Source of the DNA: Methanothermococcus okinawensis
GTDB taxonomy: Archaea > AGJL01 > Methanococci > Methanococcales > Methanococcaceae
NCBI GenBank assembly: GCA_015663075.1
Contig: DQSV01000012.1
Location: forward strand, 1-35,171
Direction: 5' to 3'
Length of the DNA stretch: 35,171 bases
Shown: positions 2,816 to 31,696 of the stretch, one piece after another
Layout: each line of letters begins with the position of its first letter
How positions within the stretch are numbered: the first letter of the stretch is position 1
The notes under the pieces: generated by a model
Told to the model about the DNA's origin: nothing
Database searches by the model: none
What the model saw: only the letters and a program-made list of their open reading frames with translations
Translations under genes and position numbers: made by a program

Positions 2816-3106
2816 ATGCTTAAGGAATTAATAAATAAAATAATCTGGCATCCTGATTATTCTGCTGAAGATTATGAAATAATTTACTTACATAGAGTGG
2901 GCCCGAGAGGAGATCATAAAAATAAAGAAAGTAATCCCACTCATGCATATAAAAAAGTTCCGATAAGTGAAGTATTCATTGAATATTCCTTTATTGTTTG
3001 TAATGTAAATAACCAAAGGACCCATATTCCCCTTCATAGAATACTGGAAATTAGAAATAAAAGAACGGGGGAGATTTTATATAAAAAATCTTATCCCTAT
3101 CATTAA
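2816..3106 (+). CDS. DUF504 / MJ1316-type RNA-end recognition protein
   Basis: A 96-residue protein starting MLKELINKIIWHP, typical of the archaeal DUF504 (UPF0248, MJ1316) family. The stretch YLHRGP-like (here YLHRVGPRGD) followed by a conserved HIPLHRI near residue 73 fits the family, whose domain is described as recognising RNA cyclic-phosphate ends. The role in archaea is not established. It begins 51 bases after the DHH phosphoesterase on the same strand, so co-transcription is likely, and a nucleic-acid function would suit both. The Shine-Dalgarno sequence is weak. Confidence 0.88.
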   Translation: MLKELINKIIWHPDYSAEDYEIIYLHRVGPRGDHKNKESNPTHAYKKVPISEVFIEYSFIVCNVNNQRTHIPLHRILEIRNKRTGEILYKKSYPYH

Positions 3107-3133
3107 GATTTCAAAATAATTAAAAAGAAAAAT

Positions 3134-3240
3134 CATATAAAAATTTAGAAATCTTATCATTATCCTTTTTTGATAATCCTAAGTACTGAGGATATGTAAT
3201 ACTTTGACAAGAATGGTTGTTATAAAAACATATAGTTAGG
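3134..3240 (+). other. Gene-free stretch with two hairpins
   Basis: The 429-base gap 3107-3535 has no gene. It contains a 6-bp perfect hairpin (arms 3159-3164 and 3172-3177, seven-base loop) and a nested one (arms 3192-3197/3228-3233 enclosing 3207-3210/3217-3220). The sequence GTACTGAGGAT at 3183-3193 resembles the 5' part of the candidate RNA near 9353, and TAGAAATC occurs near 3146 as in the element at 24706. T-rich DNA follows (3260-3355). It may be a diverged member of that RNA family, but the hairpins do not align well; weak. Confidence 0.2.
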
Positions 3241-3535
3241 TCAATTTAATAAGGACTTGAGAATATTCTTTATTATTTTTGTTCTTTGCAATAATTTTTT
3301 AAAAAATCCATATTTTCCTGCATTTTTTTAATTTTTTATTTTTTTTAATTTTTATATCACAATAGGTTTATGTGCTTGATTGTAAAATATTAAGAAGGAT
3401 AATAAATATAAAAATTATAATAAATAGTTAATATTTGATTAAATAAATATAAAAGAATAATAATATAAATAAAGATATTGTAAATTAAATAAAATACGTT
3501 ATAAAAGTTAACATTATTAATAAAGGGTTTTTCAC

Positions 3536-9201: not shown

Positions 9202-9330
9202 AGTTATCCACTTTATATATTAATAATCATATCATATGCTTTAATAAAATAATAATTATTATATTAAAAAAATAATATAAAGGATAAAATAAAATAAGAA
9301 ATAATATTTTTAAATCTCTCTAACTTAGAT

Positions 9331-9420
9331 TGTCATAAATTTTATAATGTTGGTACTGACAAAGGATCGCTTGCTCTTCCAGTGTTTGGGAGCACATAAT
9401 GAGAATAATAGAAAATTTCT
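9331..9420 (+). ncRNA. Candidate structured RNA, copy A
   Basis: In the 305-base gap between ribL and trkA. A hairpin is formed by 9372-9378 and 9388-9394 (7 bp, two G-U pairs) around a nine-base loop CCAGTGTTT. It is preceded by TACTGACAAAGGAT at 9354-9367. An AT-only outer stem (9337-9343 with 9412-9418) is possible. From CTTCC onward it matches the element at 24738 in 13 of 19 positions, with the differences mostly transitions. It could instead be part of the trkA leader. Confidence 0.4.
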
Positions 9421-9506
9421 AATTATTATATGATTATTTCTTAAGTGTTTATAATATCTTAGGTTTTAAACTTAAAATTATTAATTTAAAATTATATTGG
9501 GATATT

Positions 9507-24190: not shown

Positions 24191-24580
24191 TTATTGATCT
24201 TTATCCACTTCATCAAACTCCAATGTTATATTTTTAATATTGAACTCTTTACCTCCCCTTATTTTTAAAGATAGACTTTGGCATTTTGGGCATAATATAT
24301 CAAATTCATCCTTTGCATCCAAATCTCCCTCATAACCACAGTTATTGCACAATACCCTTGGTTTTATATACTCCACCTCTATCTCTGCCCCCTCACATAA
24401 TGTAGATTGAGAGACCACTTCAAAGGCAAACTTCAACTGCTCCACATTTATAAATGTCAACTCTCCAATCTCCAAGTTTATTTTACTTACTCTTTTAATG
24501 TTTTCGTCTTTAAAATCACTATTATTTATAGTATCTAATATAGTATTTAGCATTGATGTGGCATAGGATAATTCATGCAT
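24191..24580 (-). CDS. hypA: Hydrogenase nickel-insertion protein HypA
   Basis: A 129-residue nickel metallochaperone. The N-terminal MHELSYATSM gives the nickel-binding Met-His-Glu, and the zinc site is C78/C81 (CNNCGY) and C97/C100 (CPKC). It delivers Ni to [NiFe] hydrogenases with HypB, so it serves the Ehb-type enzyme encoded in this window and others. AGGTG is five bases before the ATG. Single gene here; hypB and the other hyp genes are not adjacent. The 390-base upstream gap holds the strongest RNA candidate. Confidence 0.96.
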   Translation of the reverse strand: MHELSYATSMLNTILDTINNSDFKDENIKRVSKINLEIGELTFINVEQLKFAFEVVSQSTLCEGAEIEVEYIKPRVLCNNCGYEGDLDAKDEFDILCPKCQSLSLKIRGGKEFNIKNITLEFDEVDKDQ

Positions 24581-24705
24581 TTTTGCACCTTAAAATAATT
24601 ATATGGAGATATTATAATTATCCCTTCATTATTAAAAATTTTTATTTTTTTAAGTTAATATTTTAGTATAGTAAAATGTATAACATTTTAAACTTATTAT
24701 AAATA

Positions 24706-24789
24706 TAGAAATCCATACTTAAAGGATTCCTCTGCACTTCCTGTGCTTAGAAGTGTAGGGTGAAGAGGAATGGTAGTGTGAGATTTCTA
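24706..24789 (+). ncRNA. Candidate structured RNA, copy B
   Basis: An 84-base fold in the gap between bioA and hypA. Outer stem: 24706-24719 with 24775-24789 (14 bp, one bulged A at 24781, one G-U). Asymmetric internal loop TAAAGG/GGT. Middle stem: 24726-24733 with 24764-24771 (8 bp perfect). A seven-base 3' bulge AGGGTGA. Apical stem: 24734-24740 with 24750-24756 (7 bp) and a nine-base loop CTGTGCTTA. In all 29 bp. T-rich sequence follows on the plus strand (24791-24950), so + is preferred. No known family recognised. Confidence 0.55.
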
Positions 24790-24970
24790 CTTTTTAAGTA
24801 TTATTTTTCTTTAACTTTTTAAAATACTTTTAATTTTTTCCATTATATCTTAAGATTTATGTTATTTTGTTATTTTTTTAGATTATTTTGATTTAATTTA
24901 TTTTTTATTTATTTTTTATATTATAGATGTGGGTTTAAGAATTTTATATTCTTGACTATATTTTATTATT

Positions 24971-26374
24971 TTATCCCAAAGTTTCTTTAATGGCCTCATA
25001 TAGATTAAAACATAAAAATTCAATTTCATCCTCAGTAATTGTCAAGGGTGGAACAATTATTATTGTATTAAATATAGGCCTCATATATATACCCCTTTTT
25101 AATAGGTTTTCTGCAACCCTATATGCCACCTTTTCCCTGATTGGATAAGGTTCCTTATTATTTTTATTCTTTACCAACTCTATGCCTATCATAAAACCCC
25201 TTTTTCTAATATCCCCAACATGTTCCAATTCTTTTAATCTATCTAGGGATCTGTGGAGCATTTCTATTTTTTTACCTATTTTTTTAAAGACTTCATCTCC
25301 TTCAAGTATATCTAAGGTAGCAATTGCTGAAGTACATAGTAATTGATTCCCTGTATATGTGTGTCCATGGAAAAACTGCCTATGCTCTTCAAAATTTCCT
25401 AAAAATTGATTGTATATCTCTTCCCTTGCCATAGTAATTGCAAGGGGTAGATATCCTCCAGTTATTCCCTTTCCAATAGTAATTATATCTGGTTTAGATA
25501 TTTTCTTTAATTTTTCATTATCTGAAAATAGATATTTTCCAAGTCTTGCAAAGGTTGCAACTTCATCAAGTATAAATAAAATACCTTCCTCCTTGGATTT
25601 TCTCGCTACTTCCTCTATGTAATTAGGTGGATAGGGTATCATACCTGCAGAGCCCATTACCCCTCCTTCCAATATTATACAGAATAACTCATCCTTATGC
25701 TCCTCTATGAGATTCAACATATCCTCTAAGCAATCCATACTACAACCTTTTTCCATTCTTTCATCCGTATCTTTAAAATTATGGCCATATTTACATCTAT
25801 AACAATAAGGGGTATTTCCATAATATCCCTTAAAGAGCAGAGGCCTAAATATTCCATGGAAGGTCTCGCTACCTCCAACACTCATGGATCCTATGGTGTC
25901 TCCATGATAACCCTCCTTAACGGAGAGGAACTTTGTTCTCTCTTTATTGCTCTCAGAATCCTTTAATTGATAGTACTCAAAGGCCATCTTAAGGGCAATC
26001 TCAACAGCCTCTGAACCATCCTCTGAGTAAAATACTTTATTTAAATGAGGGGGAGCAATTTCAACAAGTTTCTTTGCCAAAATTATGGAGGGCAGGTTGC
26101 CACTTCCTAAAAGTGTAGAGTGGCATATTTTATCAGTTTGTTTCTTTATTTCTTCAATTATTCTTTTTTCACTATGACCAAAGAGGTTGCACCATATTGA
26201 GGATACTGAATCCAAGTATTTTTTACCATTTATATCTATTAGATAATTTCCCTCACCCTTTTCAATTATTAGATTTTTAAAGGGAGGATCATATTCCTTC
26301 ATTTGAGTATATGGATGCCATAGGTATTTTTTATCCCATTCAATAAGTTCTTTGAGAGTATAATCCTTAGTCAT
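24971..26374 (-). CDS. bioA: Adenosylmethionine-8-amino-7-oxononanoate aminotransferase
   Basis: A 467-residue class III PLP aminotransferase that makes 7,8-diaminopelargonate in biotin synthesis. The BioA hallmark WHPYTQMKEY lies near residue 20, the PLP-binding lysine is K302 in IGKGITGGYLPLA, and the Asp that contacts the pyridine N is in FILDEVATF. A CYRC...CSMDC insert is like that of the lysine-using BioK branch, so the amino donor may not be SAM. The start at 26374 is set by GGTGAT three bases upstream; an ATG at 26386 overlaps that site. No other bio genes are adjacent. Confidence 0.95.
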   Translation of the reverse strand: MTKDYTLKELIEWDKKYLWHPYTQMKEYDPPFKNLIIEKGEGNYLIDINGKKYLDSVSSIWCNLFGHSEKRIIEEIKKQTDKICHSTLLGSGNLPSIILAKKLVEIAPPHLNKVFYSEDGSEAVEIALKMAFEYYQLKDSESNKERTKFLSVKEGYHGDTIGSMSVGGSETFHGIFRPLLFKGYYGNTPYCYRCKYGHNFKDTDERMEKGCSMDCLEDMLNLIEEHKDELFCIILEGGVMGSAGMIPYPPNYIEEVARKSKEEGILFILDEVATFARLGKYLFSDNEKLKKISKPDIITIGKGITGGYLPLAITMAREEIYNQFLGNFEEHRQFFHGHTYTGNQLLCTSAIATLDILEGDEVFKKIGKKIEMLHRSLDRLKELEHVGDIRKRGFMIGIELVKNKNNKEPYPIREKVAYRVAENLLKRGIYMRPIFNTIIIVPPLTITEDEIEFLCFNLYEAIKETLG

Positions 26375-26570
26375 ATTATCACCCATATGTAAAATTAAAC
26401 TTTATGTAAATTAAAATTTCTTAATTATGTTTTTAAAACAATTTAATGATAATGTATATAAATCATTTTAGAGAAAATGTAGAATATAGCTAAATTATAT
26501 AGTATTAACAACCATATACTTAGGATAAATATATAGAACATTAAAAGATTAAGATATGTTGGTGGTGTTT

Positions 26571-31506: not shown

Positions 31507-31590
31507 ATGGAAATAATTCTGTCAGAGGATTTATCTACCCTCTCAGTTCTTAGAAGTACCTAAGGGGATAATAGGACTTTTATTTCTTAT
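31507..31590 (+). ncRNA. Candidate structured RNA, copy C
   Basis: Lies in the 272-base gap between the convergent PHP gene and mtnA. Outer stem 31510-31516 with 31580-31586 (7 bp), then 31521-31523 with 31575-31577; internal loop AGAGGAT/TAG; inner stem 31531-31535 with 31567-31571 and 31538-31541 with 31563-31566. The loop region has CAGTTCTTAGAAGT, sharing CTTAGAAGT with copy B. Same order of parts as copy B though the apical stem is weaker. A TATA box and later T tracts (31630-31690) support plus-strand transcription. Confidence 0.45.
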
Positions 31591-31696
31591 GTCTTTACTC
31601 TAAGTATTTTGAAATTTAGACCATCTATTTATTTTAATTATTTTTTATTATTTTTATTTTTTTAATAATTGTTATTTTTTCAGGATTTTTTTGAAA

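Follow-up and report, generated by a model that had tools for sequence, protein, structure and literature searches.

A hairpin between hypA and bioA in Methanothermococcus okinawensis and the MITE family of IS630/Tc1-mariner type to which it very probably belongs

The hypA-bioA interval and its 294-bp unit

The window analyzed was a stretch of 35,171 nt (contig DQSV01000012.1, positions 1-35,171) from Methanothermococcus okinawensis. A hypA gene (24191-24580, minus strand; Pfam HypA, 2.3e-30) and a bioA-like class-III aminotransferase gene (24971-26386, minus strand; Pfam Aminotran_3, 8.9e-84) enclose an interval with no ORF of at least 80 aa, which agrees with the gene-free gap described in a sequence-only reading of this DNA. 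The same reading had drawn a long fold at 24706-24789 on the plus strand. This fold is real, with an MFE of -33.5 kcal/mol (z -5.5) that none of 200 shuffles equaled. The three proposed stems were recovered in part: the 14-bp outer stem with its 1-nt 3' bulge and the 8-bp middle stem were as drawn, while the top of the MFE structure was slightly different. The 7-bp top with a 9-nt loop (GCACTTC/GAAGTGT), as originally proposed, agrees with the consensus of the family described below, whose apical block, GCACTTCC-AGTGCTTA-GG, lies in this hairpin. A check of the fold against Rfam, which the reading had suggested, returned no known family even at relaxed E-values. The hairpin is thus like the structured RNAs of Rfam in having a strong single-strand fold of similar size, and unlike them in having neither a match nor covariation.

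The hairpin lies inside a 294-bp unit at 24667-24960 (plus strand), a length that includes a TA at each end; if the TA is counted as a target duplication, the element proper is 24669-24958. Its terminal inverted repeats (TIRs) are TATAGTAAAATGTATAAC.. and ..TTATATTCTTGACTATA, and its target is TA. The left repeat, TATAGTAAAATGTATAACATTTTAAACTTA (24667-24696, plus strand), scored 29.0 bits in a scan for TIR pairs, and the right repeat, TATAGTCAAGAATATAAAATTCTTAAACCC when inverted (24931-24960, minus strand), scored 20.1 bits. Small differences distinguish the left ends from the right ends. A T-rich inner tail (24785-24925, plus strand) leads from the hairpin to the right end. The arrangement is that of an insert of ~300 bp in which the conserved left sequence recurs inverted at the far end, TA-TAGTCAAGCACATAA ... 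TTATGTTCTTAACTA-TA. The idea that the left end was only a promoter was dropped because the same sequence is present, inverted, at the other end.

Copies, families and insertion sites

The three closest genomes were compared: the window's own (G000, 81.6% complete), AD-155-M21 (G006, 54% complete) and AD-155-C09 (G007). The latter two were named in a scan of the genome collection as Methanothermococcus sp. SCGC AD-155-M21 and AD-155-C09, and are genomes of single cells collected at the Von Damm vent field (PMC8417812). By BLAST, the hairpin sequence occurred many times on both strands of the window's own genome. A covariance model gave 39 matches there (about 30 strong), at least 86 in C09, where all candidates scored, and 37 in M21 (about 10 strong). 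G004 had two matches, and a search of 37 further genomes gave none.

The copies in the three genomes fall into two families. Family A includes the element in the window. The older family B has the apical hairpin CTCCC-AGTGCTTA-GGAG in common with it, as well as the GATTTCTACTTTTTA tail, and differs from it in the 5' half. Two of the lookalikes pointed out in the sequence-only reading are family-B elements: one at 9269-9471 (plus strand; R1 E 2e-4, R2 E 7e-17), which lies between divergent genes, and one at 31514-31655 (plus strand; R1 E 3e-3, R2 E 5e-13), which is truncated on the left. The third, near 20.37 kb, had no match even at E 10. A further family-B element at 3103-3286 (minus strand), which had been overlooked, was found by sequence search.

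Copy numbers and coverage were taken from sampled stretches of each genome rather than from whole genomes. These held 308 elements in 750 kb of C09, 52 in 376 kb of G000 and 37 in 352 kb of M21, covering 8.7%, 2.9% and 2.3% of the bases, respectively. Only two of the 397 elements in this 1.48 Mb lay mostly inside ORFs. The TIR-pair scan of the three genomes recognized 83 pairs (75 in C09, 7 in G000 and 1 in M21) with a median length of 296 bp, and a reversed-sequence control gave none. Many copies, above all those of family B, have degenerate ends, and a recognizable pair is limited to these 83 elements. The nearest full-length copies are at most 92% identical and, therefore, no very recent jump was seen. 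Some copies abut head to tail (L266:5961-6760 in G007:C17, L083 in G007:C79 and L023 in G000:C13), which suggests nested or tandem insertion. Two contigs of the window's genome, G000:C19 and G000:C41 (L004, L012), end inside near-identical copies, and the repeats probably break its assembly.

Filled and empty orthologous sites were paired by mapping flanks among the three genomes. This replaced a global gapped alignment, which had split the insert at empty sites. Only comparisons reaching about 85% identity across at least about 900 nt were kept; matches of ~70% reflect AT-rich chance or paralogy. At the window locus, the insert is absent from M21, where the bioA-hypA gap is about 105 nt compared to about 390 nt in the window. 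This empty allele has an extra difference of ~8 nt beside the junction. C09 has a decayed copy in the same place. The cleanest empty alleles were found opposite two C09 copies: the flanks of L277:4678-4981 are rejoined at one TA in M21, and those of L277:10552-10863 at one TA in both M21 and G000. At a third site of this kind (L282:2975-3132), a 330-nt insert has no counterpart in M21 or G000. The filled copies, in turn, have a TA at both ends. The M21 bioA gene itself lies in inverted pieces adjoining a contig end (L225:1-1030, G006:C53), probably as a chimera of single-cell amplification.

A transposase with matching ends

Among 12 congeners, a DDE_3 transposase of the IS630/Tc1-mariner type was found only in C09, in several copies, some of them decayed (L309-L313). 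The best insertion sequence (L306:902-2015 in G007:C32) is an IS630-type element of 1,114 bp with a TA target, and its ends, TATAGTCAAGCACATAATTCCTTGAACTCA and TATAGTTAAGAACATAATTCTCTGAACTCA, are those of the MITE. Its transposase is split into two overlapping ORFs (989-1468 and 1465-2010), possibly by a frameshift, with hits to PF13358 (9e-28) and NF033545 (97.6 bits for the first ORF and 126.1 bits for the second). The MITE and this insertion sequence have essentially only their ends in common, their interiors being unrelated; the window element is 294 bp long and has no transposase.

Neither the window's own genome nor M21 yielded a transposase at their respective levels of completeness and, therefore, a mobilizer for these two genomes is inferred. 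C09, which has the transposase, is also much the richest in copies. This would fit cause and effect, with a possible loss of the transposase from G000 and M21, but both of these genomes are incomplete. Adjoining ORFs at a candidate autonomous element in M21 (C63/C8) turned out to be ordinary genes, and a viral origin was set aside after neither the hairpin pattern nor the transposase matched any viral contig. A distant IS630-type transposase with 39% identity (L317, G032:C64:9225-9743) occurs in another family of the order.

These data make it very probable that the hairpin at 24706-24789 is an internal part of a non-autonomous DNA transposon, a MITE of the IS630/Tc1-mariner type. The palindromic interspersed repeat, which the sequence-only reading had offered as its alternative, appears to be the right interpretation because of the TIRs, the TA target, the sites empty in relatives and the matching IS630 transposase. 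In the proposed mechanism, a unit with no gene of its own would be bound at its inverted ends, which start with TAGT after the TA, by the transposase that the sister genome C09 has kept, and this enzyme would excise or copy the unit. The unit would then be joined to a TA dinucleotide, which would be duplicated. Repeated jumps into intergenic DNA could have produced tens to hundreds of copies, and inserted copies would decay through point changes and indels. Judging from sequence, either the C09 transposase or an extinct relative in the common ancestor would have moved the copies. The hairpin would either be carried along passively or have a role in transposition, and would not be a cellular RNA.

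Other prokaryotic MITEs include Correia, ERIC, Chunjie and QMITE (reviewed in PMC10969869). Like these, the elements described here are short, intergenic and multi-copy, with inverted ends, variable size and sequence, and truncated copies. They differ in being of the TA/IS630 type in Methanothermococcus, in their strong antisense orientation bias and in their density, which reaches one per ~2.4 kb in the sampled DNA of C09. Literature searches found no report of an IS630/Tc1-mariner-type MITE for this lineage, and the paper describing the C09 genome does not mention transposons (PMC8417812). The MITE family is previously unreported, the kind of mobile DNA is itself familiar, and the hosts are some deep-sea-vent methane-producing archaea. 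What had been a putative new RNA family becomes a family of mobile elements accounting for about 9% of the DNA sampled from one vent methanogen. Its density and orientation bias make it a natural subject for work on how MITEs may shape intergenic DNA in a small-genome archaeon.

Orientation, the fold and other explanations

In the sampled stretches, all three kinds of gap, convergent, divergent and co-directional, contain elements. Where the flanking genes are co-directional, 198 of 236 elements lie opposite to them (p 3e-27), and copies with intact ends already have this bias (43 opposite, 10 same). Our preferred explanation is that T-rich, hairpin-bearing inserts that would stop sense transcription are purged; an insertion preference is a possible source as well. 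Elements neighboring each other at 0.5-6 kb were on one strand in just 102 of 190 cases. There is a small chance that the hairpin of the MITE is functional, as an RNA or as a protein-binding site, and helps either to transpose the element or to silence or end antisense transcription. If true, this would explain why 84% of the copies are opposite to their flanking genes. Families A and B both have the apical block AGTGCTTAG with hardly any variation, and few positions in either are kept better than this loop, which, like the better-folding plus strand, would suit such a role. This loop may be a protein contact in transposition.

The same bias, together with the hairpin and T-tract, could also indicate that the MITE was domesticated, with copies serving as terminators or gene boundaries and their orientation selected. 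We consider this unlikely. The elements are present in all three kinds of gap, purging or an insertion preference suffices for a bias that intact-end copies already have, and a terminator of the flanking genes is expected in the same orientation as the genes, not the opposite one.

The sequence-only reading had favored a small RNA under structural selection, in which pairs are kept while bases differ. As a family of trans-acting small RNA genes, each copy would have a left-end promoter and a folded RNA maintained by selection. The strong fold, the conserved apical block and a T-rich tail that could terminate transcription would suit such genes, as would the observation that 120 of 123 family-A copies have a better fold on the plus strand than on the complementary one. 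Part of this strand advantage is accounted for by four positions at which G-U is the majority state, and these majority G-U pairs are inherited from the source copy. The pairing itself did not behave as selection on structure requires. Across 45 family-A copies, the proportion of cells that pair is 83.2%, and with shuffled partners it is 82.8%; two-sided changes are no commoner than chance whether partners were shuffled or slid. Departures from Watson-Crick-majority pairs are equally divided between G-U (100) and A-C (103), which argues against selection on a plus-strand RNA, since such selection would favor G-U. An alternative helix, ATACTTAAAG/CTTTTTAAGTAT, is 92% paired but has few two-sided changes, and the family-B alignment yielded no RNAalifold consensus fold. 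The reading had itself named copies lacking compensatory changes as evidence against its proposal, and the covariation and departure counts are of that kind. Orthologous sites also vary in presence, and there are hundreds of decaying copies. A small-RNA gene family is, thus, very improbable. More generally, a strong fold within a repeat family is no evidence that an RNA is functional unless covariation has been tested.

Least probable, to the point of being hardly credible, is a REP/BIME-like palindrome or an element of the IS200/IS605 type that moves as single-stranded DNA by way of its hairpin. Such an origin would fit the hairpin, the high copy number, the intergenic location and some head-to-tail tandems. 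The TIR scan and the empty sites contradict it, since they show inverted terminal repeats, a TA target and a mobile unit of ~300 bp rather than the hairpin, and so does the matching IS630 transposase.

In a more distant congener (G001), relatives of the MITE's left end are followed by different hairpins (L115, L126, L127 and L216), perhaps representing a further MITE family.
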